Assembly: GCA_945861435.1 (NCBI GenBank)
Contig: CAMAUX010000033.1
Location: forward strand, 1-56,947
Direction: 5' to 3'
Length of the DNA stretch: 56,947 nt
Source of the DNA: Chthoniobacter flavus
GTDB taxonomy: Bacteria > Verrucomicrobiota > Verrucomicrobiia > Chthoniobacterales > Chthoniobacteraceae
Part shown: piece after piece, positions 6,088-33,500 of the stretch
Layout of the letters: each line of letters begins with the position of its first letter
How positions within the stretch are numbered: position 1 is the first letter of the stretch
Notes under the pieces: generated by a model
What the model was told of the DNA's origin: nothing
The model's input: only the letters and a program-made list of their open reading frames with translations
The model's database searches: none
Translations under genes and position numbers: made by a program

Positions 6088-7479
6088 TCAGGCGAGGATT
6101 TCCTTCACCACGTGTCCCTCGACGTCGGTGAGGCGGTAGTCGCGGCCGGCGTGACGGTAGGTGAGCTTTTCGTGGTCGAATCCGAGCAGGTGCAGGATGG
6201 TGGCGTGGAAATCGTGGACGTGGACGGGATCGACGCTGGCGCGCATTCCGTGTTCGTCGGTGGCGCCGTGGACGGTGCCGGGTTTGACGCCAGCGCCCGC
6301 GAGCCATGAGCTGAAGGCCCATGGATGGTGTTCGCGGCCTTTGGCTTCGGCGGTGTTGTTGAAGGGGGTCCGGCCGAATTCGGTGGTCCAGACGACGAGG
6401 GTGTCCTCGAGCATGCCGCGTTGTTTGAGGTCGCGCAGGAGGGCGGCGATGGGTTGGTCGACGTTTTTGGCGAGGGGGCCATGGGTCATCATGTCGCCGT
6501 GGGCGTCCCAGTTTCCTGAGGAGCCCGAGTCGATGAGTTCGACAAAGCGCACGCCGCGCTCAAGCAGGCGTCTGGCGGCGAGGCATTGCCAGCCGAAGCC
6601 GGTGGTTTGGCCGCGCGCGAGGCCGTAGTCCTCGTGGGTACGATCGGTTTCCTCCTGAAGATTGAAGGCGTCGGGGACGGCCATCTGCATGCCGAAGGCG
6701 GTCTCGAAAGTGCGCAGGCGCGCTTCGAGAAGAGGATCGGCGTTGCGGGTTTGAAGATGGGCTTGATTGAGGGAGCGCAGGGCGTCGAGTTCGCGCGACT
6801 GGAGGTCTGAGGGGATGCGGCGGGCGACGTTGGCGACGGGTTCGGGTCCTGGAATGACGAGGGTTCCCTGATGAGAGCCGGGGAGGAAGTCGCTGGCGAA
6901 GACCTGGCCGCCTGCGTAGGTCTGTTTTGGAGCGATGACGACGAAGGAGGGGAGGTTTTTGTTGATGGTCCCCAAGCCGTAACTGACCCAGGAGCCGATG
7001 CTGGGGCGTGCGAAGGCGAACGAACCGGTGTGCATGCCGAGGGTGGCATTGTAGTGGTTCGAGTGGGAGGTGTGCATCGAGCGGATGAGGGTGAGTTCGT
7101 CCGCGCAGGAGGCCATGTGGGGAAAGAGATCGCTTACTTCGATGCCGGATTTTCCGCGCGGGCTGAATTCCCACTGGGGCCGTTTGAGGTAGATGCGTTC
7201 GTAGCCCGGGCGGCCCTTGATTTCGGGATGGTCGGCTTTGATTTCTTTGCCGTGATCCCGGGTGAGTGTGGGTTTGGGATCGAAGCTGTCCACGTGTGAA
7301 ACGCCGCCCGTCATGAAGAGAAAGATGACGCGCTTGGCCTTGGCTGGAAGGGGCGGATTTTTTGGCGCAAGCGGGTCTGTGCTATCCGCCATGAGTTGTT
7401 GGAGAATGCCAGGGAAGAGGAGGGAACCGGTGACGGCGGACTGGAGGAAATGTCTCCGAGGAATGGTGTGCGCGTTCAT
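6088..7479 (-). CDS. DUF1501 protein with Tat signal (first copy)
   Basis: A 463-aa protein starting with a Tat-type leader (RRHFLQ at 8-13, then a hydrophobic stretch ending near LMA). Conserved DUF1501 features are visible: the VIFLFMTGGVSHVDSFDPKP opening, SMHTSHSNHYNATLGMHTGS, the WTTEFGRTPF motif and the C-terminal DFHATILHLLGFDHEKLTYRHAGRDYRLTD block. The family is abundant in Planctomycetes and Verrucomicrobia, is distantly related to the sulfatase/alkaline phosphatase fold and has no established reaction. It starts 36 bp after the stop of the PSD1/cytochrome gene, the usual partner of this family, so the two are probably co-expressed. Confidence 0.9.
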   Translation of the reverse strand: MNAHTIPRRHFLQSAVTGSLLFPGILQQLMADSTDPLAPKNPPLPAKAKRVIFLFMTGGVSHVDSFDPKPTLTRDHGKEIKADHPEIKGRPGYERIYLKRPQWEFSPRGKSGIEVSDLFPHMASCADELTLIRSMHTSHSNHYNATLGMHTGSFAFARPSIGSWVSYGLGTINKNLPSFVVIAPKQTYAGGQVFASDFLPGSHQGTLVIPGPEPVANVARRIPSDLQSRELDALRSLNQAHLQTRNADPLLEARLRTFETAFGMQMAVPDAFNLQEETDRTHEDYGLARGQTTGFGWQCLAARRLLERGVRFVELIDSGSSGNWDAHGDMMTHGPLAKNVDQPIAALLRDLKQRGMLEDTLVVWTTEFGRTPFNNTAEAKGREHHPWAFSSWLAGAGVKPGTVHGATDEHGMRASVDPVHVHDFHATILHLLGFDHEKLTYRHAGRDYRLTDVEGHVVKEILA

Positions 7480-7515
7480 GGGATGGGGAGCGAGGGAGGG
7501 GGGGGAAGAAGACGG

Positions 7516-10446
7516 TTAGTCGAGGTGGCTGAATTCGTTTCCGGCGAGGAGGATGCGGCTGTAGGCGTTCCATGCGTCTTCGGGCGATGTGCGGTAGGAG
7601 GCGAGGAAGGTGGTGGCGTGGTGGAGTTCGGGGGCCGAGGGTTCGCGCTGGAAGAGCGTGCGGAAGGCGCGTCTGAGGCGGGAGGGGTCGTCGGGGATTG
7701 TGGTGAGTGTGGAGGCGAAGGCGGCGGCTTGCTTGTGGAGGAAGGGGTTGTTGAGAAAGAAGAGGGCCTGGGGAGGGACGGTGGTGGTCTGGCGTTGGGC
7801 GGTGCTGGAGTTGGGGTCTGCGCCGTCAAAAAGGGAGAGGAAGGGATGACGGCGCTGGCGCTGGGTCATGAGGAAGGCGCTGCGTTTGGTGTGTTCGTAA
7901 ACGGCGTTGAAGGGACTGTGTTGGGTGAATTTCCACTCATCTTCGGGCGGGAACGGATGCACCTCGCCCGGACTGAGGTCGAGTTGGCCGGAGACGGAAA
8001 GCAGGCTGTCCCGGAGTTCCTCCGCGGCAAGGCGGCGTCGCGAGAACCTTGCGAGCAGGCGGTTTTCGGGATCTTTTTGGAGGAGGCTTTCCGAGGTGTC
8101 GCTGCTGCGCTGGTAGGCTGCGCTTTGCATGATGAGCCGGTGCATGGCCTTGATGCTGTAGCCGCTGGCAACAAACTCGGAGGCGAGGAATTCGAGGAGC
8201 TCCGGATGGGAGGGCTTTTCGCCACGGGAACCGAAGTCGTTTGGAGAGCGGACGATGCCGTTTCCAAAGTGCCACTGCCAGATGCGGTTGGTCATGACGC
8301 GTGCGGCGACCGGGTGGCTGGAGATCCAACCTCCCAGTTCGCGCCGGCCGCTTTCGGTGGGTTTGGAAAGAGGTTGTCCACCGAAGATCCCCAGCCAGCG
8401 GCGTGGGATTTCGTCGCCGGGTTTTTCGGGTTCGCCGCGGAGTTGGAGTCGTGCATTGACGGGGGGTGCTTCTGCGACGGCGTAGGCCCATGGGATGGAG
8501 GGCGCTGGGCCTGCTTCCGGGATCTGGAGGTTGCGGCCGAGTTCGAGGAGGGCGGTGCCGGTGCCTAGGGTGCGCAGGTGCTGGAGTTCGAAGGCGACGC
8601 CATCGCCCTTGCTGGGATGGGCATCGGCGACGCGGCCTTGCACGCGGATGGTGCCGTCCATGGGGCTCACCCATGCCACGGCGACGGGTTGATTGGGGCC
8701 CGGGTGGATAAGAAAAGAGCGCGCCGGGAGGGTGGTCCAGACCATGAGTTGCTGGTCTGAGGAGTTGACGAAGACCGAGGGGATGTCGCCGATGCTCCAC
8801 TTTTGAATGTCGCTGTGCCCATTGACTGAGGTGGCCTTCTGATGAAGGAAGACGGGGCCGTCTTTGGTGATCGAGAGGAAGCACCATGCGGCGTCCTGCG
8901 CGCCGGGATGCGGGTTGGATTCGGTGAGCGAGGACACCAGATCGGACACGCTCCAAACGCGTTCCGGGGATGTGGTGTCGCGGATGGTCCATTCGACGAG
9001 CGTGCTGTCGGCACCGTGGTTTTTGTTGGGGGAGACGGTGAGCAGGAGCACCTCGCCTTTGCGGACAGTGATTTGGTCGAGGGCCGTTTTCTGGCTTTGT
9101 TCGAAGGCCACGGAGGCGCCTTCGGCAATGGGAGCGGCGGCGAGGAGGGCCGTTTCTTCGGTGAAACTTTTTTTGAGGGTTTTACCGGCCGACGCGAGTT
9201 TGGTTCTGAGGGCGTCTTCCTGTGCGCGCTTTTGGAGCCATGGTTTCATGAGGGCGTCGGCCTCGGACTTGGCGATGAGGGGCAGCATGTCGCGCGGTTT
9301 TCCTGAGGCCTCGCAACCGGGATAGGAGAAGCGGGTGCTTTGGAAGATGCCGTAGAGGGAGTAGTAGTCGGCGGCGCTGATGGGGTCGTATTTGTGGTCG
9401 TGGCAGCGTGCGCACGCGAGGGTCATGCCGAGGAAGGTTTTGCCGAGGTTGTCGATGAGGTCCTCGTGCATGAGGTGGACGTCCTTGGATATTTCGTGAC
9501 CGAAGCGGCGAGCGATGGCGAGGTAGCCCGTGGCGATGATGCCCTCGTTGAGTTGCGCTCGTTGGGCGGAGGCGCGTTCGAGGTCGCCGGCGATTTGGAA
9601 GCGGATGAACTCATTGTAGGGAAGGTCTTTGTTCAAGGCGTCGAAGACCCAGTTGCGGTAGCGCCACGCGTGTATGAGGGGGCGGTCCGTATTCTCGCCC
9701 GCGGTGTCGGCGTAGCGGACGACGTCGAGCCAGTGTCTGCCCCATTGGACGCCGTATTGGGGGGAGGCTAGGAGGCGGTCGACGACCTTGGTGAATGCGT
9801 CCGGCGAGGAGTCGGCGAGGAAGGCGTCGGCTTCCTGTGGCGATGGAGGGAGGCCGGTGAGGTCATAGGTGGCGCGGCGCAGAAGTGTGCGTTTGTCGGC
9901 GGGCGCAGAGGGTTGGAGGCTTTCGCTCTGGATGCGTGCGTTGAGGAAGGCGTCGATTTGCGCAGAAGCGGAGGCCGGGGCGGAGGGCGCACTCGTTTTT
10001 GGGAGCGGTTGGAATGCCCACCACGTTTTTGCTTCCACGGCGTTCATGCCGCCGATTTTGGCGGAGGCGACGCGCGGGTCCGGGGCACCCATTTTCACCC
10101 ACTGTTCGAGGAGGGCGATTTTGGAATCGGGGAGTTTGCCGCCCTTTTTTTTGGGAGGCATGGCGGAGTCCTCGTCGGTATAGCGGACGGCCTTGATGAG
10201 AAGGCTTTGATCGGGATCGCCCGGGAGCAGGGCGGGGCCGGAATCGCCGCCCTTGGACCATCCGGCTTTGGAATCGAGAGAGAGGCCGCCCTTGGTCTTG
10301 GAGCCGCTGTGGCAGTCGAAGCAGTGCTCGACGAGGAGGGGGCGGATCTTGGATTCGAAAAAGGCGAAGTCCTCGTTGGCGGAAGCGGCCGGTTGGAGCG
10401 ATGCGAGGAGGCAGAGAGAGGCGAGGGATCGGAAGGGGAATCGCAT
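7516..10446 (-). CDS. PSD1 and planctomycete cytochrome c domain protein (first copy; DUF1549/DUF1553)
   Basis: The ATG at 10446 gives a 976-aa protein with a signal peptide (MRFPFRSLASLCLLASLQPA). The N-terminal PSCyt1 heme domain carries CFDCH at 42-46 and an MPPKKKGGKL stretch. DUF1549 follows (WWAFQPL, DLTGLPPSPQEAD, WGRHWLDVVRYADT), then CARCHDHKYDPI, a second possible heme c site (CxxCH), and C-terminal DUF1553 (FGSRGEKPSHPELLEFLA, MHRLIMQSAAYQRSS). Such proteins are exported c-type cytochromes found with DUF1501 partners. The catalytic role is unknown. It starts 25 bp after the GntR regulator stop and runs into the DUF1501 gene. Confidence 0.9.
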   Translation of the reverse strand: MRFPFRSLASLCLLASLQPAASANEDFAFFESKIRPLLVEHCFDCHSGSKTKGGLSLDSKAGWSKGGDSGPALLPGDPDQSLLIKAVRYTDEDSAMPPKKKGGKLPDSKIALLEQWVKMGAPDPRVASAKIGGMNAVEAKTWWAFQPLPKTSAPSAPASASAQIDAFLNARIQSESLQPSAPADKRTLLRRATYDLTGLPPSPQEADAFLADSSPDAFTKVVDRLLASPQYGVQWGRHWLDVVRYADTAGENTDRPLIHAWRYRNWVFDALNKDLPYNEFIRFQIAGDLERASAQRAQLNEGIIATGYLAIARRFGHEISKDVHLMHEDLIDNLGKTFLGMTLACARCHDHKYDPISAADYYSLYGIFQSTRFSYPGCEASGKPRDMLPLIAKSEADALMKPWLQKRAQEDALRTKLASAGKTLKKSFTEETALLAAAPIAEGASVAFEQSQKTALDQITVRKGEVLLLTVSPNKNHGADSTLVEWTIRDTTSPERVWSVSDLVSSLTESNPHPGAQDAAWCFLSITKDGPVFLHQKATSVNGHSDIQKWSIGDIPSVFVNSSDQQLMVWTTLPARSFLIHPGPNQPVAVAWVSPMDGTIRVQGRVADAHPSKGDGVAFELQHLRTLGTGTALLELGRNLQIPEAGPAPSIPWAYAVAEAPPVNARLQLRGEPEKPGDEIPRRWLGIFGGQPLSKPTESGRRELGGWISSHPVAARVMTNRIWQWHFGNGIVRSPNDFGSRGEKPSHPELLEFLASEFVASGYSIKAMHRLIMQSAAYQRSSDTSESLLQKDPENRLLARFSRRRLAAEELRDSLLSVSGQLDLSPGEVHPFPPEDEWKFTQHSPFNAVYEHTKRSAFLMTQRQRRHPFLSLFDGADPNSSTAQRQTTTVPPQALFFLNNPFLHKQAAAFASTLTTIPDDPSRLRRAFRTLFQREPSAPELHHATTFLASYRTSPEDAWNAYSRILLAGNEFSHLD

Positions 10447-10471
10447 GGGGGGCGGGCCTTTCGGGTGAAGA

Positions 10472-11161
10472 CTAGCGGCGTGATTTTTGGGTGCGTGTGC
10501 GCGGGTTGCTGGATGGGGGCGCATTTGGAGAGAGGTGCTCTGAGATCCATTGGCGCCAGCCGAGGATGTGTTGCTGCATCCGGGCCTCGCATTGAGCGGG
10601 GGAGCTGGAGTGGAGCAGTTCGAGCAGTTCGGAGTGGGCGCTCACGGTTGCGGGACGGACGTCGTGGATGAGGAGTTCTCGTTCCCGATGCAGTCCTCCG
10701 AGCCAGAGTTGGAGTTCGGGACGCAGAGCGCGCCAAGAGCGCAGGAGGCGGGAGTTGCCTGCGGCGGTGAGAATGAGTTCGTGGAAGTCGAGGTCGAGGG
10801 TGGTGACTTCGTGGACGCTTTTGGCGGTGCTGGTTTTGTGGATGTTTTTTTGGAGGGCTTTGAAGTGATGACCGAGGTTGGATGCGGCGAGGCGCGCACC
10901 TGCGGGTTCGAGGAGGAGGCGCATGGCATGGAGTTCCTCGAAGTCGGATTTGGAGAGGGTCTTTACGAAACTGCGGCCGGTTTCCTTGAACTGCACGAGG
11001 CCTTCGTTTGCGAGGGTGACGAGGGCCTCGCGCACCGGGACGCGGCTGACGCCGAGGCGTTTTGCGACGGGGGCTTCGGCGAGTTTGGTTCCCGGGGGGA
11101 GGGAGCCTGAGAGGATTTCCCTGCGGAGGGTGGAGACGGTGGCATCGGCGAGAGCGGTCAT
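10472..11161 (-). CDS. GntR-family (FadR-type) transcriptional regulator
   Basis: A 229-aa regulator. The winged-helix domain fills about residues 1-75 (TLRREILSGSLPPGTKLAE, then VSRVPVREALVTLANEGLV, the recognition-helix signature). An all-helical FCD effector domain follows (DFEELHAMRLLLEPAGARLAA; FHELI; HSELLELL). I chose the ATG at 11161 over an in-frame TTG at 11206, because the latter would place a perfect operator-like palindrome inside the coding sequence. FCD regulators of this type usually sense sugar acids or other small carboxylates. Position at the head of the PSD1-DUF1501 run makes it the likely local regulator. The ligand is not predictable. Confidence 0.88.
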   Translation of the reverse strand: MTALADATVSTLRREILSGSLPPGTKLAEAPVAKRLGVSRVPVREALVTLANEGLVQFKETGRSFVKTLSKSDFEELHAMRLLLEPAGARLAASNLGHHFKALQKNIHKTSTAKSVHEVTTLDLDFHELILTAAGNSRLLRSWRALRPELQLWLGGLHRERELLIHDVRPATVSAHSELLELLHSSSPAQCEARMQQHILGWRQWISEHLSPNAPPSSNPRTRTQKSRR

Positions 11162-16441: not shown

Positions 16442-17821
16442 ATGACGATGACGTTTTTTTCGAAGTGGCTGCGGTTGGTTGCGACGGTGGCGGCCGGGTT
16501 GATTCCCCTCCTGGCGCGAGCTGGGGAGAAGGCGCCGAATCTTTTGTACATCCTTGCGGACGACCTTGGGCGCGGGGATTACAGCGCGTTTGGGACGGCG
16601 GACGTGCGCACGCCGCACATTGATCGGTTGGTGCGTGAGGGGATGGAGTGCGTGAATTTTCGGGCCAACAGCTGTGTGTGTTCGCCGACGCGGGCGGCGC
16701 TGCTGACGGGGTGTTATCCGGACCGGGTGGGGGTGCCCGGGGTGATCCGTGGGGAGCAGCCTGCGAATTCGTGGGGATGGCTTTCTGCGAAGGCGGTGCT
16801 GCTGCCCCGTGTGTTGCATGGGGCGGGTTATCACAGTGCGCTGGTGGGCAAGTGGCATCTGGGGTTGAGCGCGCCAAACACGCCGAACGAGCGCGGGTTT
16901 GATTTTTTCAAAGGGTTCCTCGGGGACATGATGGACGACTACTGGACGCACCTGCGCAACGGACGCAATTTGATGCGCGAGAACACGGCGGTGATCGAGC
17001 CGGAGGGCCACGCGACGGACCTCTTCACGCGGTGGGCGTGCGAGTATCTGGAGAGTCGCGCGGGCAGGGAGGATCCGTTCTTCCTCTACCTTGCGTACAA
17101 CGCGCCGCACGACCCGATCCAACCGCCGCCGCAGTGGTTGGAGAAGGTGCGCGGGAGGGAGCCTGGGATTTCAGTGAAGCGGGCGGCGCTCGTGGCGCTC
17201 ATCGAGCATATGGATGCGGGCGTGGGCGCGGTTCTGGAGAAGTTGGACGCGCTGGGACTCGCGCAGAACACGCTGGTGGTGTTCACCTCGGACAACGGCG
17301 GCGTGCTCAGTCTGGGGGCCAATAATGGTCCGTGGCGCGGGGCCAAGCAGCAGATGTACGAAGGGGGGCTGCGGGTGCCGTGCGTGGCTCGGTGGCCGGG
17401 GAGGATCGCGCCGGGGTCGCGCACGGAGCAGTCGCTGCTGACGATGGACCTTTTCGCGACGGCGTGTGAGGTGGCAGGGGTGGAGCCGCCGGCTGGGATC
17501 GACGGGCGCAGTTTCCTTTCGACGCTCCGGGGTTCCGGGGGAGTGGTTCCGGGGCGTGCGGAGTATTACGTGCGGCGGGAAGGGGGGGCGGCGTATGGGG
17601 GCAAGACGATCGAGGCGCTGCGCGAGGGGGATTGGAAGCTGCTGCAAAACAGCCCGTTCGCGCCGCTGGAGCTTTACAATCTGAGGGAGGATCCGTTGGA
17701 AACGCGGGATGTTGCGGGGAAGGAGAAGGCGGTGTTTGAGCGGATGTCGGCGGCGCTCAGGGTCCATGTGCAGCGCGGGGGTGTGGTGCCGTGGCAGCCT
17801 GCGGATGGGGGGGCGCACTGA
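16442..17821 (+). CDS. Exported sulfatase (type I, formylglycine-dependent)
   Basis: A 459-aa protein with a signal peptide ending near LLARA. Catalytic elements are all present: metal-binding Asp pair in YILADDLG (40-41), the maturation site Cys80-Ser-Pro-Thr-Arg84 followed by AALLTG, GKWHLG with the catalytic Lys and His, and the VVFTSDNGG metal ligands. The Cys should be converted to formylglycine. It most resembles arylsulfatase A-like enzymes acting on carbohydrate sulfates, but the substrate cannot be told. It is first of four genes on this strand (sulfatase, pseudosulfatase, maturase, sulfatase), with a 127-bp divergent promoter region shared with the deaminase gene. Confidence 0.92.
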   Translation: MTMTFFSKWLRLVATVAAGLIPLLARAGEKAPNLLYILADDLGRGDYSAFGTADVRTPHIDRLVREGMECVNFRANSCVCSPTRAALLTGCYPDRVGVPGVIRGEQPANSWGWLSAKAVLLPRVLHGAGYHSALVGKWHLGLSAPNTPNERGFDFFKGFLGDMMDDYWTHLRNGRNLMRENTAVIEPEGHATDLFTRWACEYLESRAGREDPFFLYLAYNAPHDPIQPPPQWLEKVRGREPGISVKRAALVALIEHMDAGVGAVLEKLDALGLAQNTLVVFTSDNGGVLSLGANNGPWRGAKQQMYEGGLRVPCVARWPGRIAPGSRTEQSLLTMDLFATACEVAGVEPPAGIDGRSFLSTLRGSGGVVPGRAEYYVRREGGAAYGGKTIEALREGDWKLLQNSPFAPLELYNLREDPLETRDVAGKEKAVFERMSAALRVHVQRGGVVPWQPADGGAH

Positions 17822-17876: not shown

Positions 17877-19304
17877 ATGCGTGCAATGAAGCTGGCGCTG
17901 GTGGGGCTTCTCCTTCTTTCGGGAATGGAGGGCGTAGCGCTGTGGGCGGCCCCGCCGACCTTGCCCAACATCCTGCTGATCCTTGTGGAGGACGTGGGGG
18001 CTTGGGAGCTCGGGTGTTATGGAGGGGCGGCGGCGGAGACTCCTAATTTGGACCAGATGGCTGAGGAGGGGATGCGCTTCAGTGCGGCGTACGCGGCGAG
18101 TTGTGTGGGCGGACCGTCGCGGGCCAGTGCGATGACGGGAAAGTCGCCGGTGCGGTTGCGTTTCACGGAAGACCTGCGGGGCGGGGGCGTTGCGGGAGCG
18201 CTGCAGCCAGCAGGGTCCGGGGCCGGGCTATCCGGTGATGATGTGACGTTTGCGGAGACGCTCAGGGAGGCGGGGTATCGGACGGCGTACGTGGGGCCGT
18301 GGGGGCTGGGGCTTGGGGCTGGGGCGCCCGAGCGGCACGGGTTTGAGGTGGTGAGTGGGGCGGCTGCAGTGCCGCAATCGTTCTTTAGTCCTTTTGGGTT
18401 GCCTGATCTTGGCGACAGCCTGCCGGGCACGCATCTGGGGGAGCGTCTGACGACGGAGGCGCTGCGTTTTATGAGCGCAGCGAAGGAGAAGCCTTTCCTG
18501 CTGTGTTTTTCGTGGCCGACGAGTCATCGGGCGGAGGATCAGAGATCGGAGATTTTGGAAAAGGTGAAGGCACGCGCCGGGGAGGGTGCTGGGGTGGATG
18601 CGCGGGTGGTGGCGGCGGCGGGGCTTGAAGCGTTGGATGCGGCGGTGGGGCAGATGGTGGAGCGCTTGCGGGAGCTGGATTTAACGAAGAAGACGATCGT
18701 GGTGTTTCATTCAGCGAGCGGTCGCTGGCAGTCCTCTGGGGCGGAGGATGAAGCGATGCGCGGCGTGGTCGGGACGCTCTGGGAGGGAGGGCTGCGCGTG
18801 CCCTTGATCGTGCGCTGGCCTTCGGTGCTTGCGGGTGGCGCGTTATGCCGGGTTCCTGTGATCAGCACGGACCTGTACTGGACGTTTGTGGAGTTGGCCC
18901 GCGGAGTCCCCCCTGTGGAATTGGAGCCCGACGGCCAGAGCATGCTGCCTTTGTTCAAAAACGTGGGAGGCGCGCCCCGTCCGTTTTTCTGGCATTTCCC
19001 GCACTACCATGAGTCCGGAGGCAGGCCTTCGAGCGCGATCCGGGTGGGGGACTGGAAGCTTGTGGAGAACTTTGAGGATTCTTCGGCGTGGCTCGTGAAC
19101 CTGATTGCGGATCCGACGGAATCCACGGATTTGTCGGGGAAATGGCCGAAGCGCACGGCGGCGTTGAGGGAGCAACTCAAGGCGTGGCGGGATCAGAGTC
19201 TGGCGGCGATGCCATCTGCGAACGCGCAACCGCCACCGGGCCCCGCGGACGTGGGTGCGGCGGCGGGTGAGGTCCCCGGAGGTTCCGCGGCGGGTCCGCG
19301 TTGA
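17877..19304 (+). CDS. Exported sulfatase paralogue lacking the catalytic residues (pseudosulfatase)
   Basis: The ATG at 17877, six bases after GAGGG, gives 475 aa with a signal peptide. The overall sulfatase frame is kept (PNILLILVEDVGAWELGCYGG; ETPNLDQMAEEGMRFSAAYA; LWEGGLRVPLIVRWP), but active-site motifs are lost. The expected Cys of CxPxR is Gly78 (GGPSR), GKWHLG has become GPWGLG, the SDNG metal ligands are SASG, and the first metal Asp pair is Glu-Asp. The frame is intact, so it is not simply decaying. A binding, chaperone or regulatory role is inferred. It lies 55 bp after the active sulfatase and 44 bp before the maturase. Confidence 0.85.
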   Translation: MRAMKLALVGLLLLSGMEGVALWAAPPTLPNILLILVEDVGAWELGCYGGAAAETPNLDQMAEEGMRFSAAYAASCVGGPSRASAMTGKSPVRLRFTEDLRGGGVAGALQPAGSGAGLSGDDVTFAETLREAGYRTAYVGPWGLGLGAGAPERHGFEVVSGAAAVPQSFFSPFGLPDLGDSLPGTHLGERLTTEALRFMSAAKEKPFLLCFSWPTSHRAEDQRSEILEKVKARAGEGAGVDARVVAAAGLEALDAAVGQMVERLRELDLTKKTIVVFHSASGRWQSSGAEDEAMRGVVGTLWEGGLRVPLIVRWPSVLAGGALCRVPVISTDLYWTFVELARGVPPVELEPDGQSMLPLFKNVGGAPRPFFWHFPHYHESGGRPSSAIRVGDWKLVENFEDSSAWLVNLIADPTESTDLSGKWPKRTAALREQLKAWRDQSLAAMPSANAQPPPGPADVGAAAGEVPGGSAAGPR

Positions 19305-19348
19305 GTGCGGTGCTGTTGGCTTGAGTGAGTTCGTTCTGTTCCATCCCT

Positions 19349-20437
19349 ATGAAGATTCCGACGCTGACGTCTGTTGTTTTGGTGACTGCTGTGCATGCGC
19401 TTTGGGCCGCTGATGGGCCTGGGCGAGCAGGGTATGGGCCCACCGTGGAGAATGCGGCGAAGGCGCCCGGTGCGTCGCCTGCGGGGATGGTGTGGGTGCC
19501 CGGCGGCGAGTTTTCCATGGGGACCGAGGATCCCACGCGGATGGTTTGCGAAGGGCACGGGGATGATCCCATGCAGGATGCGCGTCCGATTCACCGGGTG
19601 TATGTGGACGGGTTCTGGATGGACACCACGGAGGTGACCAATGAGCAGTATGCGCGTTTTGTGGAGGCGACCCATTATGTGACGGTGGCCGAGCGCAGAC
19701 CCAAGCCGGAGGATTTCCCGGGGGCGCGTCCGGAAGATCTGGTTCCTGGGTCCATCCTGTTCACGGCGACGCCGGGGCAGGTGCCGCTCAACGACTTTCT
19801 TGCATGGTGGCGTTATCAGCCGGGTGCGTGCTGGAATCGTCCCGGCGGGCCCGGGACTTCGGTGAATGGGCGTGAGAAGTTTCCGGTGGTGCACATTGCG
19901 TACGAGGACGCGGAGGCCTACGCGAAGTGGGCTGGGAAACGGCTGCCGACCGAGGCGGAATGGGAGTTCGCGGCCCGCGGTGGTGCGTCGGGGAAGCCGT
20001 TCACATGGGGCGATGAGTTCAAGCCGAAGGGGAAATGGATGGCGAATATCTATCAGGGATCCTTTCCGACAAAGGACACGGGGCTCGACGGGTTTGCGGG
20101 GCTGGCGCAGGTGGCGTCGTATGCGCCGAATGGGTACGGGATTTACGATCTTGCAGGGAACGTGTGGGAATGGTGCGCGGACTGGTACAGGCCGGACTAT
20201 TACGCACAGGTGGCGCGCGATGGGCTGGCGCGCAATCCGCGTGGGCCGGCTGATAGTTTTGATCCGCAGGAACCCGGGACGCCGAAGCGCATTCACCGTG
20301 GCGGTTCGTTCATCTGCACGGACCAGTATTGTTCGCGGTACATGGTGGGGTCGCGGGGCAAGGGGGAGCCTTCCTCGGCGAGCAATCACGTGGGGTTTCG
20401 TTGTGTGATGGTGCCGGCTGCAGGGGCGGCTAAGTAG
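19349..20437 (+). CDS. Exported formylglycine-generating enzyme (SUMF1 family)
   Basis: The ATG at 19349 gives 362 aa with a signal peptide (MKIPTLTSVVLVTAVHALWA). The FGE-sulfatase fold is complete: MVWVPGGEFSMGTED, DGFWMDTTEVTNEQYARFV, RLPTEAEWEFAARGG, GNVWEWCADWY, and the C-terminal GGSFICTDQYCSRY, in which Cys323 and Cys328 match the copper-binding catalytic pair (Cys336/Cys341) of human FGE. That pair separates it from the many inactive FGE-like proteins. It should oxidise the sulfatase cysteine to formylglycine. It sits between the sulfatases it probably matures, 16 bp before the third sulfatase-type gene. Export implies maturation outside the cytoplasm. Confidence 0.9.
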   Translation: MKIPTLTSVVLVTAVHALWAADGPGRAGYGPTVENAAKAPGASPAGMVWVPGGEFSMGTEDPTRMVCEGHGDDPMQDARPIHRVYVDGFWMDTTEVTNEQYARFVEATHYVTVAERRPKPEDFPGARPEDLVPGSILFTATPGQVPLNDFLAWWRYQPGACWNRPGGPGTSVNGREKFPVVHIAYEDAEAYAKWAGKRLPTEAEWEFAARGGASGKPFTWGDEFKPKGKWMANIYQGSFPTKDTGLDGFAGLAQVASYAPNGYGIYDLAGNVWEWCADWYRPDYYAQVARDGLARNPRGPADSFDPQEPGTPKRIHRGGSFICTDQYCSRYMVGSRGKGEPSSASNHVGFRCVMVPAAGAAK

Positions 20438-20453: not shown

Positions 20454-22382
20454 ATGGATGATACGATGACGCCGGGAACGGCGCGTAATGTCGCGCGGAT
20501 GCGGTGGCCGCGATGGACGCGATGGGTGGGGGCTTTTGTGTTGTGCGGGTTATTCCCTTTTGCCCCGGAGTCCGCGGATGCTGCGGAGTCTGCGCGGCCG
20601 AACATCCTGTGGCTGGTGAATGAGGATCACGGTCCGCACATGGGTGCGTACGGGGATCGGTACGCGACGACGCCGGTGTTTGATGCGCTGGCCAAGGCGG
20701 GGGTGCGTTACCGGCGGTGCTGGTCGAATGCGCCGGTGTGCGCGCCCGCGCGGACCACGCTGATCGCTGGGCTTTATGCGAATTCCACGGGGGGCGAGCA
20801 CATGCGCAGCATGGTGCGCTTTCCGGAGGGCAAGCAGATGTATCCGGAGCTGATGCGTGGGGCCGGCTATTACTGCACCAATAATGCGAAGGAGGACTAT
20901 AACCTCACTCAGACGAAGGGCGCGCTCTGGGATGAATCTTCGAAGAAGGCGCACTGGCGCAACCGGCCCGCCGGGAAGCCGTTCCTTGCGGTGTTCAATT
21001 CGGAGAAGAGCCATGAGAGCAAGATCCGTGTGCGGCCGCATGTGCAGGTGCACGATCCGGCGAAGGTGGACGTGCCGGCTTATCACCCGGATACGCCGGA
21101 GGTGCGTCAGGACTGGGCGCAGTATTACGATGCGGTGAGCGAGGCCGATGCCGATGCGGGTGTGCGTCTGAGGGAGTTGCAGGAGGCGGGGTTGGCCGAG
21201 GACACGGTGGTTTTCTATTATGCGGATCACGGGTCGGGGATGCCCGGCAACAAGCGCTGGCCCTACAACCGCGGGCTTCAGGTGCCGCTGGCGGTGTATG
21301 TGCCTGAGAAGTTCAAGGAACTGCGGCCCGCGGATTATCATGCCGGCGGGATGTCGGATCGGCTCGTGAGCTTTGTGGATTTTGCACCGACGCTGCTGAG
21401 TCTGGCGGGGGTGCCGGCTCCGGGATGGATGCAGGGGCGGGCGTTCTTGGGTGCGCATGTGTCCGGCGCGCCTTCTTATCTCTTTGGTTACCGGGGGCGG
21501 ATGGATGAGGTGGTGGACAGCGTGCGCAGCGTGACGGATGGGCGGTATGTGTACGTCCGCAATTTCCGGCCGGACCGGATTTATGGGCAGCATCTCAATT
21601 ACATGTGGCAGACGCCGACCACGCAGGTGTGGGAGCGGATGTTTTATGCGGGGGAGCTCAATCCGGTGCAGTCGCGTTTCTGGCAGGTGAAGCCGACCGA
21701 GGAGCTTTACGACCTTGAGCGCGACCACGAGGAGGTGAACAACCTCGTGGCGGACCGTGCTCAACAGAATCGGTTGCTGCGGTTCCGCTCGGTGTTGCGG
21801 GATCAGTGTCTTGCGGTGAGGGACGCCGGGTTGTGGCCGGAGGGCGAGTTGCACCGGCGTTGCGGGGGGCGGAGTCCGTATGACTTCCTGCGCGCAGCGG
21901 GTGCGCCGGCGATGGACCGGATTTACGACATGGCGGAGCTGGCATCCGGGATGAGGGCGGAGGGGCTGCCGGTGTTGCGTGCGGCGTTGCATGATCAGGA
22001 GAGCGTGGTGCGGTACTGGGCGGTGCTGGGGGTGAAGATGCGCGGGCCGCAGGCCGTGGCTGCATGCCATGAGGAGTTGCTGGCGGCGCTGGAGGACGGC
22101 TGCAGCGATGTGCGCATCGTTGCGGCGGAGGCGCTGGCGCGTCACGGGGACGCGGCGGATTTGGCAGAGGTGCTGCCCCGGCTCGTGCAGCAGGCCGATG
22201 GGAGCCGGAATGAGTATTTCACGGCCCTCGCAGCGGCGGGCGTGCTGGAGGCGCTTGGGGAGAGGGCGCGCCCTGCAGCCGCGCAGATCCGGGCATTGCC
22301 GCGGACTGGAGATGCGCCAGACGCGCGTTTTAAGGAGTACGTGCCGCGGTTGATGGAGACGCTGGTGGAGCGGTTGCGCTGA
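20454..22382 (+). CDS. Exported sulfatase with C-terminal HEAT-like region
   Basis: A 642-aa protein. A signal peptide (about 20-45) precedes the sulfatase domain with the maturation site Cys96-Ala-Pro-Ala-Arg100, the early metal motif VNEDHGPHMGAYGD and the later YYADHGSGMPGNKRWPYNRG. The order and spacing resemble heparan N-sulfatase-like families. After about residue 480 a helical segment (LRAALHDQESVVRYWAVLGV; VRIVAAEALARHGD) looks like HEAT repeats. It is the last gene of the sulfatase operon. Its 3' end overlaps the convergent monooxygenase gene by 53 bp. Catalytic competence is likely. Substrate unknown. Confidence 0.9.
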   Translation: MDDTMTPGTARNVARMRWPRWTRWVGAFVLCGLFPFAPESADAAESARPNILWLVNEDHGPHMGAYGDRYATTPVFDALAKAGVRYRRCWSNAPVCAPARTTLIAGLYANSTGGEHMRSMVRFPEGKQMYPELMRGAGYYCTNNAKEDYNLTQTKGALWDESSKKAHWRNRPAGKPFLAVFNSEKSHESKIRVRPHVQVHDPAKVDVPAYHPDTPEVRQDWAQYYDAVSEADADAGVRLRELQEAGLAEDTVVFYYADHGSGMPGNKRWPYNRGLQVPLAVYVPEKFKELRPADYHAGGMSDRLVSFVDFAPTLLSLAGVPAPGWMQGRAFLGAHVSGAPSYLFGYRGRMDEVVDSVRSVTDGRYVYVRNFRPDRIYGQHLNYMWQTPTTQVWERMFYAGELNPVQSRFWQVKPTEELYDLERDHEEVNNLVADRAQQNRLLRFRSVLRDQCLAVRDAGLWPEGELHRRCGGRSPYDFLRAAGAPAMDRIYDMAELASGMRAEGLPVLRAALHDQESVVRYWAVLGVKMRGPQAVAACHEELLAALEDGCSDVRIVAAEALARHGDAADLAEVLPRLVQQADGSRNEYFTALAAAGVLEALGERARPAAAQIRALPRTGDAPDARFKEYVPRLMETLVERLR

Positions 22383-30464: not shown

Positions 30465-33400
30465 TTAGTCGACGAAGGAGAATTCGTTGAGGTTCAAGAG
30501 CAGCCGGCAGGTGGCCGGCAGGCCGTGCTGGCGCGCGTAGGTGGTGAGCTGGGAAAGCTCCTGCATGCTTGGTTCGCGGCTGATGGCGAGCCGGAATGCA
30601 CGGCGCACCTGTGTGTCCGAGACAGCCGCCTTGGGATCGGCATCCCCGGGCGCAGCGGTGTCGCGAAGGGCGCGTGCGGCGAGGGTGGAGGATTGGAAGA
30701 GGATGAATCCGTCGTTGAGGAGCGCGAGGGCTTGGAGTGCGGAGAGGCTTTCGTTGCGGCGATCCACGCGCATGGAGGGGTCGGCGCAATCGAGCGAGGT
30801 GAGCCATGGCTGGGTCTGGGAGCGCACGGCAAAGCGGTAGACGGCGCGCCGGTGGCATTTGGGATCGGCCGGGTCGTGGAGATCGTAGCGGTAATGGGGC
30901 GAGTGTTCAGGACGTTCGACAACGAAGTCCTGCCAGCCCGGGCCTCCCATGGTGAGATCGAGTGCGCCGGAGGCTGCGAGTGTCGCGTCGCGCACGGCTT
31001 CGGCCTCGAGCTTGCGCCGGTTCTGCCGCCAGAGCAGGCGGTTGTTGGCGTCGCGCGCCTGTGCATCGGGTCGCGCGATAGAGGCTTGCTGGTAGACGGC
31101 GCTGGTGACGATGAGCCGGTGAAGCGCCTTGAGTGAACCGCCAGAGTCGCGGAATTCGCTGGCCAGCCACTCGAGGAGTTCCGGGTGGGAGGGAAGCGCG
31201 CCGTTGCGGCCGAAGTCGCCCGGGGTTTCCACAAGGCCGGCGCCGAAGTGGTAGTGCCAGACCCGGTTGACGATGGTGCGCCATGTGAGGGGGTTCTCCG
31301 GATGGGCGATCCACTCCGCGAGTGCCGCGCGGCGTGCGCTCTCGGGCGCGGCGGGGTCGAGGGCGAAGCGGGCGGGTTGGAAGTGGAGAGCGGAGAGAGC
31401 GCCCGGGGCGACTTCGCGTCCGGGTTGCGTGACCTGGCCGCGCGCGAGGAGGAAGATGGGGCGTGGTTTTCCATCGTCTGGTCCCGTGCCCTTGAAGCTG
31501 CCGGTTCCGTAGTGGATGGCGCCCACGTAGGCGGTTTTTCCGGGCGGGAAGGTCTTCATCTTTTCGGTGAGGCGTGCCTGCTCGGCCTTGGCTGCATCGA
31601 GATCGGCGCGGATCTTGGGTGTGGCTTTGGCGAGAAGAAGCTCGGTGCGCTCCTTCTCGAGTTGCGCGACGGTTTTCGCGGTGGTGGTGCTCTTGATGGG
31701 CGAGATGCCGTCGGTGAGGTTCTTGCGCGACCAGCGTTGTCCGGACTCGATGGAGTCGAGCGACGTGACTCGTCCGCCGAGGGCGAGGTTGGCTCCGGAT
31801 TCATCGAAGGCCTCCAGTTCCGCGAGCGCGAAGATGAAGTCGTCCTTGCGCGGGGCGAGCTTGGTCGCGGTCATCCGGATGTAGCGGGCCTGCGCGCCCT
31901 GCGCTTCTGCGGTCTGCGGAGTGGTGCCGGGGTTCGCTTGGTCCGAGCCCGTGCGGTCCATGAGGAGGTGGACGTCGCGTGCGAAGTCGGGATCGTCGCT
32001 GATCTCCAACTTGTAGCGGACCGGGAATCCGAAGCCCGGGCCGATGTGGTTGAAGTCGTCGTCGCAGGCGGTGAAGACGATGCGCTGAATCGGGACGGTG
32101 CGACCGAGGTCGACCTGCACCCACTTGGTGCGTTCCTGTGTCTTCTCGATGCTGCTGTGGTAGCCGTATTCGGGTCGGCCCTTGGCGGTGCCCGGTTGGC
32201 GCGCGGCCTTGAGCGCGGCATCGATTTTTGCCAACTCGGGGCCGGCATCTTTTTCGAGATCCTTCTGAAGAGCGGCGACGCGGTCGGCGGCCTTGCGCTG
32301 GAGGGCGGGAAGGGGCCGGTAAGCAGCGGTGAGAGCGGGATCGTCGAAGTAACGGACGTCGGTGCGATCGAGGGCGGCGAACACGGCTTGGAACGCGTAA
32401 TAGTCCTCCTGAGGAATGGGATCGAATTTGTGATTGTGGCACTGGGCGCAGTGGACGGTGGTGGCGCAGAAGGTGCCGATGGTGTTGGCCACCATGTCGT
32501 CGCGATCGAGGTGGCGCGCGATTTTGCCGTCGGTCTTGGTCTCGGGCACCTCGGCGTGGCCGATGAAATCCCATGGCCCCGCGGCAAGGAATCCGAGGGC
32601 TTCGAGTCCGTCGGTGGAGTTGGGGAAAAGGACGTCGCCTGCGATCTGCTCGCGCACGAATTGGGCGTAGGGTTTGTCGGCGTTGAGGGAGCGGATGACG
32701 TAGTCGCGGTAGGGCCATGCGTTGAGGCGCGGCTTGTCCTTATCGTAACCATGGGTGTCGCCGTAGTGGACGACATCGAGCCAGTGGCGCGCCCAGCGTT
32801 CGCCATAGCGCGGGCTCGCGAGAAGCTCGTCCGCGAGCCGCGCGAAGGCGTTCGGCGAGGGGTCGGATAGGAAGGCGTCGAGTTGTTCCGGGCTGGGCGG
32901 CAGGCCCGTGAGATCGAAGTAAAGGCGGCGGCAGAGAGTGGCGGCATCGGCCCGCGGGGAGGCGGCGAGGTTTTCGCGCTGGAGGCGCTCGGCGACGAAG
33001 GCATCGATGGGATGCGAGGCGCCTTTGGGTGGGGCGGTTTTTTGAAGGGGGCGCAGGGACCACCAGTCGGTGGGGGCGGCGATTTTGGCGGAGGCTTCCT
33101 CGGGCCAGTGCGCGCCTTCGGCGATCCAGCGGGAGAGGATTTGTTGCTGGGCGGGGGAGAGGAGGTCGCCCTTGGGGGGCATGCGCAGGTCCGGGTCTGA
33201 GCCGGCGATGAAGGTGAGCAGGGGGCTGCGGGCGGTGTCGCCCGGGACGATGTTGGGGGCGTGGCTTTCGCCGCCGGTGAGGGCGATGGACTTCACATCG
33301 ATGCGGTAACCGGACTTCTGTTTTTCGGGTCCGTGACAGCGCAGGCAGTGTTCCTCGAGGAGGGGGCGCACTTCGCGCACGAAGTCCACGGGGTCAGCGT

Positions 33401-33500
33401 GGAGGAGGCTGGTGGTGAGCGTCAGCAGCAAGAAGGCGCAGAGGTGCGCGATGCTGGGACGCGAAGCGGTGGGGGTGCTCTGGCGGGGGATCCGGTTCAC
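30465..33500 (-). CDS. PSD1/planctomycete cytochrome c protein with internal discoidin-like domain (second copy)
   Basis: A 1011-aa protein read from GTG at 33500; no ATG or clear ribosome site is near, so the start is tentative. The signal peptide (CAFLLLTLTTSLLHA) is followed by a PSCyt1 heme site CLRCH at 52-56, DUF1549 (WWSLRPL, DLTGLPPSPEQLD, WARHWLDVVHYGDTHGYD), CAQCHNHKFDPI, and then a stretch at about 443-565 resembling F5/8-type (discoidin) carbohydrate-binding domains (TKWVQVDLGRTVPIQRIVF). DUF1553 (FGRNGALPSHPELLEWLA) ends it. The discoidin insert is missing from the first copy and suggests glycan docking. A TGGTATTACCA palindrome lies just upstream. Confidence 0.9.
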   Translation of the reverse strand: MNRIPRQSTPTASRPSIAHLCAFLLLTLTTSLLHADPVDFVREVRPLLEEHCLRCHGPEKQKSGYRIDVKSIALTGGESHAPNIVPGDTARSPLLTFIAGSDPDLRMPPKGDLLSPAQQQILSRWIAEGAHWPEEASAKIAAPTDWWSLRPLQKTAPPKGASHPIDAFVAERLQRENLAASPRADAATLCRRLYFDLTGLPPSPEQLDAFLSDPSPNAFARLADELLASPRYGERWARHWLDVVHYGDTHGYDKDKPRLNAWPYRDYVIRSLNADKPYAQFVREQIAGDVLFPNSTDGLEALGFLAAGPWDFIGHAEVPETKTDGKIARHLDRDDMVANTIGTFCATTVHCAQCHNHKFDPIPQEDYYAFQAVFAALDRTDVRYFDDPALTAAYRPLPALQRKAADRVAALQKDLEKDAGPELAKIDAALKAARQPGTAKGRPEYGYHSSIEKTQERTKWVQVDLGRTVPIQRIVFTACDDDFNHIGPGFGFPVRYKLEISDDPDFARDVHLLMDRTGSDQANPGTTPQTAEAQGAQARYIRMTATKLAPRKDDFIFALAELEAFDESGANLALGGRVTSLDSIESGQRWSRKNLTDGISPIKSTTTAKTVAQLEKERTELLLAKATPKIRADLDAAKAEQARLTEKMKTFPPGKTAYVGAIHYGTGSFKGTGPDDGKPRPIFLLARGQVTQPGREVAPGALSALHFQPARFALDPAAPESARRAALAEWIAHPENPLTWRTIVNRVWHYHFGAGLVETPGDFGRNGALPSHPELLEWLASEFRDSGGSLKALHRLIVTSAVYQQASIARPDAQARDANNRLLWRQNRRKLEAEAVRDATLAASGALDLTMGGPGWQDFVVERPEHSPHYRYDLHDPADPKCHRRAVYRFAVRSQTQPWLTSLDCADPSMRVDRRNESLSALQALALLNDGFILFQSSTLAARALRDTAAPGDADPKAAVSDTQVRRAFRLAISREPSMQELSQLTTYARQHGLPATCRLLLNLNEFSFVD

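Follow-up and report, generated by a model that had tools for sequence, protein, structure and literature searches.

Pseudoenzymes are well known as a kind of protein, and sulfatase gene counts serve as a measure of the ability of bacteria to desulfate polysaccharides. The solved structure closest by sequence to the gene described here is 9FO1 (E=2e-86), with 6UST and 7STT next in rank. 9FO1 is the kappa-carrageenan 4-O-sulfatase AMOR_S1_16A, for which the consulted part of the source gives Asp18, Asp19, Asp263 and Asn264 as calcium ligands, Cys58 as nucleophile, Lys287 and His201 as further site residues, and Trp79, His125 and His149 as typical of S1_16 (PMC11760155). In SulfAtlas, according to the excerpted text, Cys or Ser was counted at the nucleophile of 4058 sequences, and nine sequences from Lentisphaerae and Planctomycetes, with Ile or Leu instead of the catalytic Arg, were considered possibly inactive (PMC5066984). 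Another set comprised 2040 'bona fide' sulfatases, five of them with Ser, and the portion of that source at hand names none without Cys or Ser (PMC6388578). Papers on bacterial pseudosulfatases were not found in the open-licence literature searched by titles and abstract beginnings, which is weak evidence of absence.

The window, i.e. the whole stretch of 56,947 nucleotides analyzed here, corresponds to contig C33 in a draft genome totalling 5.35 Mb. Pfam classes its open reading frame P0001 as a sulfatase (PF00884 over the full domain, E=7.1e-36, 124.5 bits with the threshold at 25; SGSH_C, E=1.8e-10), though nucleophile, full metal site and sulfate clamp are absent and, judged by its residues, it should not work. 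The frame has zero internal stops, and its GC content by codon position (0.69/0.54/0.75) is similar to that of the neighboring genes. A predicted model (pLDDT 84.4, pTM 0.86), whose input alignment of active relatives biases it toward an active-type fold, gave 9FO1 as top fold match (Z 52.6, 2.1 A over 429 residues, 37% identity; Foldseek E=9.3e-48). The C-terminal stretch HYHESGGRPSSAIRVGDWKL is also similar to that of 9FO1. By Pfam match and model, P0001 has the S1 fold of the alkaline phosphatase superfamily, and its ranking among solved structures places it nearest to S1_16. The open frame, export leader and preserved fold claimed by the first-pass annotation were thus recovered, the leader by eye and the fold by prediction.

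Features of P0001 and its neighbors, with positions in the window
Feature	Position	Strand	Basis
P0002, upstream sulfatase, complete active site (11/11)	16442..17821	+	Pfam, alignment; relatives 62-67% identical
P0001, candidate pseudosulfatase ORF, 475 aa, S1_16-like fold without catalytic site	17877..19304	+	Translation, Pfam, alignment, model
P0001 putative N-terminal export signal MRAMKLALVGLLLLSGMEGVALWAA	17877..17951	+	Hydrophobic leader in translation, judged by eye
E38-D39, D-D (Ca ligands) in relatives; D39 retained	17988..17993	+	D 73/73 at both positions
G78-G79-P80-S81-R82 replacing the C-x-P-x-R nucleophile motif; R82 retained	18108..18122	+	Cys 73/73, Arg 73/73
GPWGLG 140-145 replacing GKWHLG; K141P, H143G	18294..18311	+	K 73/73, H 73/73
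H217, substrate-site His, retained	18525..18527	+	H 73/73
SASG 279-282 replacing SDNG; Ca ligands D280A, N281S	18711..18722	+	D 72/73, N 70/73
V298 replacing the sulfate-binding Lys of the RxGKG...EGG motif	18768..18770	+	K 73/73
P0003, formylglycine-generating enzyme (FGE), both active-site Cys GGSFICTDQYCSRY; start may be ATG at 19349	19325..20437	+	Pfam, alignment
P0004, second sulfatase, CAPAR motif, E-D metal motif, C-terminal HEAT repeats	20454..22382	+	Pfam, alignment

The active site was compared with that of 73 relatives of active type, consisting of 61 rows from fetched loci (blastp of at least 190 bits, more than 330 query residues spanned, at most 95% identical; weaker matches excluded), 11 class or phylum loci, and 9FO1. 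P0001 lost seven of the 11 near-invariant site residues (D38E, C78G, K141P, H143G, D280A, N281S and K298V) and retains D39, P80, R82 and H217. These changes affect (i) the formylglycine precursor motif [CS]-x-[PA]-x-R, which is broken by Gly78; (ii) the four calcium ligands, typically D-D-D-N/Q, which here are E38, D39, A280 and S281; and (iii) the sulfate-binding Lys/His/Lys of the GKWH and RxGKG motifs, replaced by P141, G143 and V298. The Arg of CxPxR and the equivalent of His201 in 9FO1 are present (R82 and H217). Trp79, His125 and His149 of 9FO1 correspond to D99, G143 and V165, with the Trp79 and His149 positions being variable among the 73 relatives too. The 9FO1 sugar contacts Asn369 and Gln370 correspond to E379 and S380, and Glu270 has no counterpart; together with Trp79 and His149, which are likewise sugar contacts, these positions also vary across active relatives. 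The first Asp is likewise replaced by Glu in P0004 (NEDH) and in relatives that retain CxPAR (rows SSEDH and TSEDN), so the exchange of D-D for E-D is not a loss by itself.

The first-pass annotation had reported four independent losses. All four differences are present, and C78G, GPWGLG and SASG stand as losses, the E-D pair being weak alone; a fifth, K298V, had been overlooked. Since Cys78, Lys141, His143 and Lys298 are each found in 73/73 relatives, the site changes in P0001 are not due to chance. Relatives with the residues in place, named by the annotation as a possible sign of local sequence error, do exist, but at no more than 44% identity; taken with the seven losses, this points to lineage-specific loss. 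Sequence error was rejected as an explanation because of seven separate site changes inside an open frame.

Losses were concentrated at the active site, with 7/11 site residues changed compared with 14/76 other near-invariant residues (Fisher p=0.0033, a descriptive value, as the differences were already known when the site list was assembled, with the 9FO1 paper and general knowledge as its sources). In a leave-one-out control, 65 of the 73 active relatives lost zero site residues and eight lost one. The distant active sulfatase P0002 lost 0/11 site residues and 18/75 others, so erosion of the fold in P0001 does not exceed that in an active outgroup. For L075, the most divergent S1_16 row, losses were 1/11 and 14/78, and P0001 ties with it for most other-residue losses among S1_16 rows (18%). 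Measured by these residues, the predicted fold of P0001 is preserved about as well as in divergent working sulfatases, and its site is dismantled. The stops, frameshifts and fold-residue loss of a decaying pseudogene are not evident; the frame is open and the other losses are as given above. P0001 rather has the features of a pseudoenzyme, i.e. missing catalytic residues, an intact frame and a fold that is preserved by prediction.

Relatives were searched in overlapping sets that included the own genome (57 relatives and 40 family, 213 order, 384 class and 387 phylum genomes), and pattern scans covered 84,980 species genomes and viral contigs. For order, class and phylum, the best 7, 4 and 4 of 85 own-genome candidates were scored, and in these three sets only the best few per genome were considered. 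Among the long matches listed, from family to phylum and in the species genomes, no P0001 ortholog with more than about 44% identity was found; a 51% match (L095, species-genome pattern scan) covers 75 residues only. By comparison, family relatives reached 67% identity for P0002, 74% for P0003 and 61% for P0004. Three congeners gave zero matches to P0001 at E<=1e-70, and none of seven pattern matches in viral contigs was confirmed. As the next best match in the own genome is P0002 (E=4.7e-52), an active S1_16 sister of P0001 is not seen there, and at only 33% identity P0001 and P0002 are no recent duplicate pair. The first-pass annotation had proposed aligning relatives for shared losses. An ortholog sharing them was not found in the same searches, and all 73 aligned relatives keep Cys78. 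A supported sister of P0001 was absent from both trees calculated (64 and 75 rows). On its sequence, P0001 is best described as an orphan pseudosulfatase; it does not yet represent a conserved family.

We also surveyed 208 unique sulfatase-like ORFs of at least 330 aa, drawn from the loci fetched as relatives and hence not random. Cys fills the nucleophile column in 201 of them; P0001 has Gly there, L057 has Ala, and the remaining five rows have a gap and were not scored as losses. Three of the latter (L171, L103 and L118) run past the locus end; in L133, which resembles another superfamily branch, the motif is absent; the fifth is L060 (420-1421). L057 (also L146; G024:C89:1-1374, minus strand) is a nucleophile-less S1_16-like ORF from the same bacterial family with AAPSQ for CSPTR. 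Its frame is open to the contig end, which cuts off the C-terminus. Losses in L057 amounted to 6/11 at the site and 3/71 elsewhere (p=9e-5). In the tree, L057 groups with active sulfatases in a well-supported clade that does not include P0001. A conserved pseudosulfatase clade was not found, given that the two lie in different parts of the tree, and the nucleophile was probably lost twice in the family, in L057 independently of P0001.

P0001 lies in a row of four genes on the plus strand, beginning 55 bases past P0002 and ending 20 bases ahead of P0003. In the gaps flanking it, zero promoter-like or terminator-like sites were detected, in a scan that overall yielded no more than shuffles. As the first-pass annotation had it, P0001 stands between an active sulfatase and a maturation enzyme: P0002 has a complete site, and P0003 aligned to solved FGEs with both Cys (6S07, GGSFLCHESYCNRY / GGSFICTDQYCSRY), which we take to be the FGE active-site pair. 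P0004 carries NAKEDYN where other sulfatases have GKWHLG. Two other regions of the window (6088-10524 and 30465-33500) encode proteins of planctomycete type, namely DUF1501 and PSCyt1/PSCyt2/PSD1 proteins, one of them with an F5/8 type C domain.

The genome as a whole is rich in sulfatases. There were 63 Pfam Sulfatase matches and 60 ORF matches, of which four were judged to be pieces; including P0004, about 57 sulfatase-like genes result. Three further loci of this genome deserve mention. L119 (G000:C25:38279-39984) contains CCPSL, with Leu instead of the catalytic Arg, and is in this respect like the Arg-less SulfAtlas sequences, as far as the excerpt describes them (PMC5066984). In L130 (G000:C3:39218-40965), the Cys is kept, GEAQ stands for D-D and AGRG replaces the His motif, so that its site is perhaps partly eroded or misaligned. 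At L137 (G000:C40:25169-27635), short sulfatase-like ORF pieces adjoin an intact sulfatase ORF, giving the look of a broken copy, in contrast to P0001.

P0003-type FGEs are present in 30 of the 40 family genomes, the own included (E<=1e-60). Given this distribution and the number of sulfatase-like genes, P0003 is probably a general maturase and not dedicated to the adjoining pair. Around its nearest relative (74%, G003), sulfatases of the P0001, P0002 and P0004 kinds were absent within the 12 kb read. All of this weakens the earlier description of P0003 as the maturase of P0001 and P0002. We further read 21 stretches of family genomes chosen around matches to P0004 (16), P0002 (2), P0003 (1), S1_16 (1) and, for G005 (1), both. 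In none of them were P0001-, P0003- and P0004-type genes found together, i.e. a conserved operon was not found. An active S1_16 gene adjoins a P0004-type gene in four stretches (G005, G058, G032 and G020), and P0001 may stand where the active enzyme stands in these genomes. Of six P0004 relatives at 54-61% identity, only the one in G005 has an adjoining S1_16 gene, the other five having none in the stretch. In G030, P0002- and P0004-type genes are about 1.4 kb apart, and in G021 a P0004-type gene adjoins two FGE-like genes.

Neutral decay was simulated from the codons of P0001 without indels, with 1000 runs per base composition, each stopped at 7/11 site changes; the scope of this simulation is full neutrality only. 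Stop-free runs numbered 0/1000 at GC 0.64 and 2/1000 at GC 0.78, and those that also had at most 14 other losses 0/1000 and 1/1000, respectively. When halted at four losses, 22/1000 and 52/1000 runs were stop-free (13 and 25 with at most 14 other losses), so a milder decay history is less firmly excluded. Full neutrality throughout the period of loss is rejected, and relaxed or recent weak constraint remains compatible with the data. The first-pass annotation had held that selection retained a non-catalytic sulfatase; its case against neutrality stands to this extent, and relaxed constraint fits as well. Synonymous divergence was saturated or nearly so between P0001 and four relatives (dS of 2.02, 2.27, 2.41 and infinite), and no dN/dS value is claimed. 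For L057 and seven sisters (3.01, 3.17 and five infinite), dS was not a clean test.

We consider it probable that P0001 is an exported pseudoenzyme derived from an S1_16 ancestor of the galactose/GalNAc-sulfatase type, most likely serving as a non-catalytic partner or a surface-acting protein. It would be exported, would not be maturable and would not cleave sulfate esters. Selection would retain it as a putative folded binding protein, most likely one that belongs, together with P0002 and P0004, to a single exported set for desulfation. This reading draws on the concentration of losses and its controls, the simulation, the model, the neighbor-like GC, the tight gene spacing and L057. Against it speak the failure to find shared-loss orthologs, the 18% of other residues lost and a long end branch, which fits relaxed constraint too: at 2.05 it is the longest of 75 rows (median 1.07 for the 42 rows from the same node, node support 63), and in the earlier 64-row tree it ranked third (2.03), behind P0002 (3.2) and L068 (2.15). 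The main rival reading, that P0001 is under relaxed constraint and on its way to a pseudogene, its function lost recently or weakly selected and its frame still open, seems rather unlikely. Such a history would agree with the branch length, the lack of matches in the three congeners and the broken look of other sulfatase pieces in the genome; seven site losses with zero stops and few other losses were, however, rare in the neutral simulation, and fold residues are preserved as well as in P0002.

As a sub-case of the retained pseudoenzyme, whose probability overlaps with it, a remodelled pocket might hold sugar without cutting it. R82, H217 and the 9FO1-like C-terminal stretch are in favor of this unlikely role, but the sulfate-binding K, H and K and two calcium ligands are lost, and the five sugar contacts of 9FO1 are changed, though these vary in active relatives. 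Since the old pocket would hardly be able to hold sulfate in its former manner, a partner or new-surface role ranks above simple sulfated-glycan binding, and the sulfated-glycan binding suggested earlier is weakened as far as the old pocket is concerned. It is improbable that P0001 is a new hydrolase with chemistry rebuilt on the alkaline-phosphatase fold. The acid pair E38-D39, R82 and H217 persist at the old site, where change is concentrated; position 78, however, lacks a nucleophile, the metal site is incomplete, and conserved new residues cannot be picked out without orthologs. The suggestion that P0001 acts on the FGE maturase as a decoy or regulator appears very improbable. Its stretch PSRASAMTGK after the lost Cys resembles the FGE recognition stretch, going by the motif in the consulted text (PMC11760155), and an FGE gene lies directly downstream. 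Yet substrates are gripped through binding of their Cys to the FGE copper, as stated in the accessible part of the source (PMC12123546), and this Cys is missing from P0001; moreover, P, R, T and G of that stretch are near-invariant in sulfatases generally, L057 lost the Arg too, and the FGE has many other sulfatases to serve.

The pattern of erased catalytic machinery and preserved remainder suggests, though it does not prove, a non-enzymatic job for P0001. If kept by selection, the protein would represent a non-enzymatic use of the S1 fold and would serve as a natural experiment on the residues that this fold requires when catalysis is absent.

P0001 and 9FO1 can be aligned along almost their entire length, including the C-terminal subdomain. 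Of D18, D19, C58, K123, H125, D263, N264 and K287 of 9FO1, only D19 is matched in P0001, and R62 and H201 are matched as well (R82, H217). The Arg-less SulfAtlas sequences, in the passages seen of their description, are similar to P0001 in being S1 sequences minus a catalytic residue; they lost the Arg, whereas P0001 keeps it and lost nucleophile, metal and sulfate ligands (PMC5066984). L057 shares with P0001 an open S1_16-like frame, a replaced nucleophile (Ala), the exchange of the first Asp for Glu, site-concentrated losses and, in 9FO1 numbers, changes of His125 (to Gln) and Asp263 (to Thr). It differs in that Arg62 and His201 are lost and Lys123, Asn264 and Lys287 are kept. Chitinase-like lectins act beside chitinases. 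By analogy, and on the basis of two independent cases in one family (P0001 and L057), we tentatively raise the possibility that sulfatase-rich bacteria repeatedly convert S1 sulfatases into exported non-catalytic proteins that work alongside active sulfatases.
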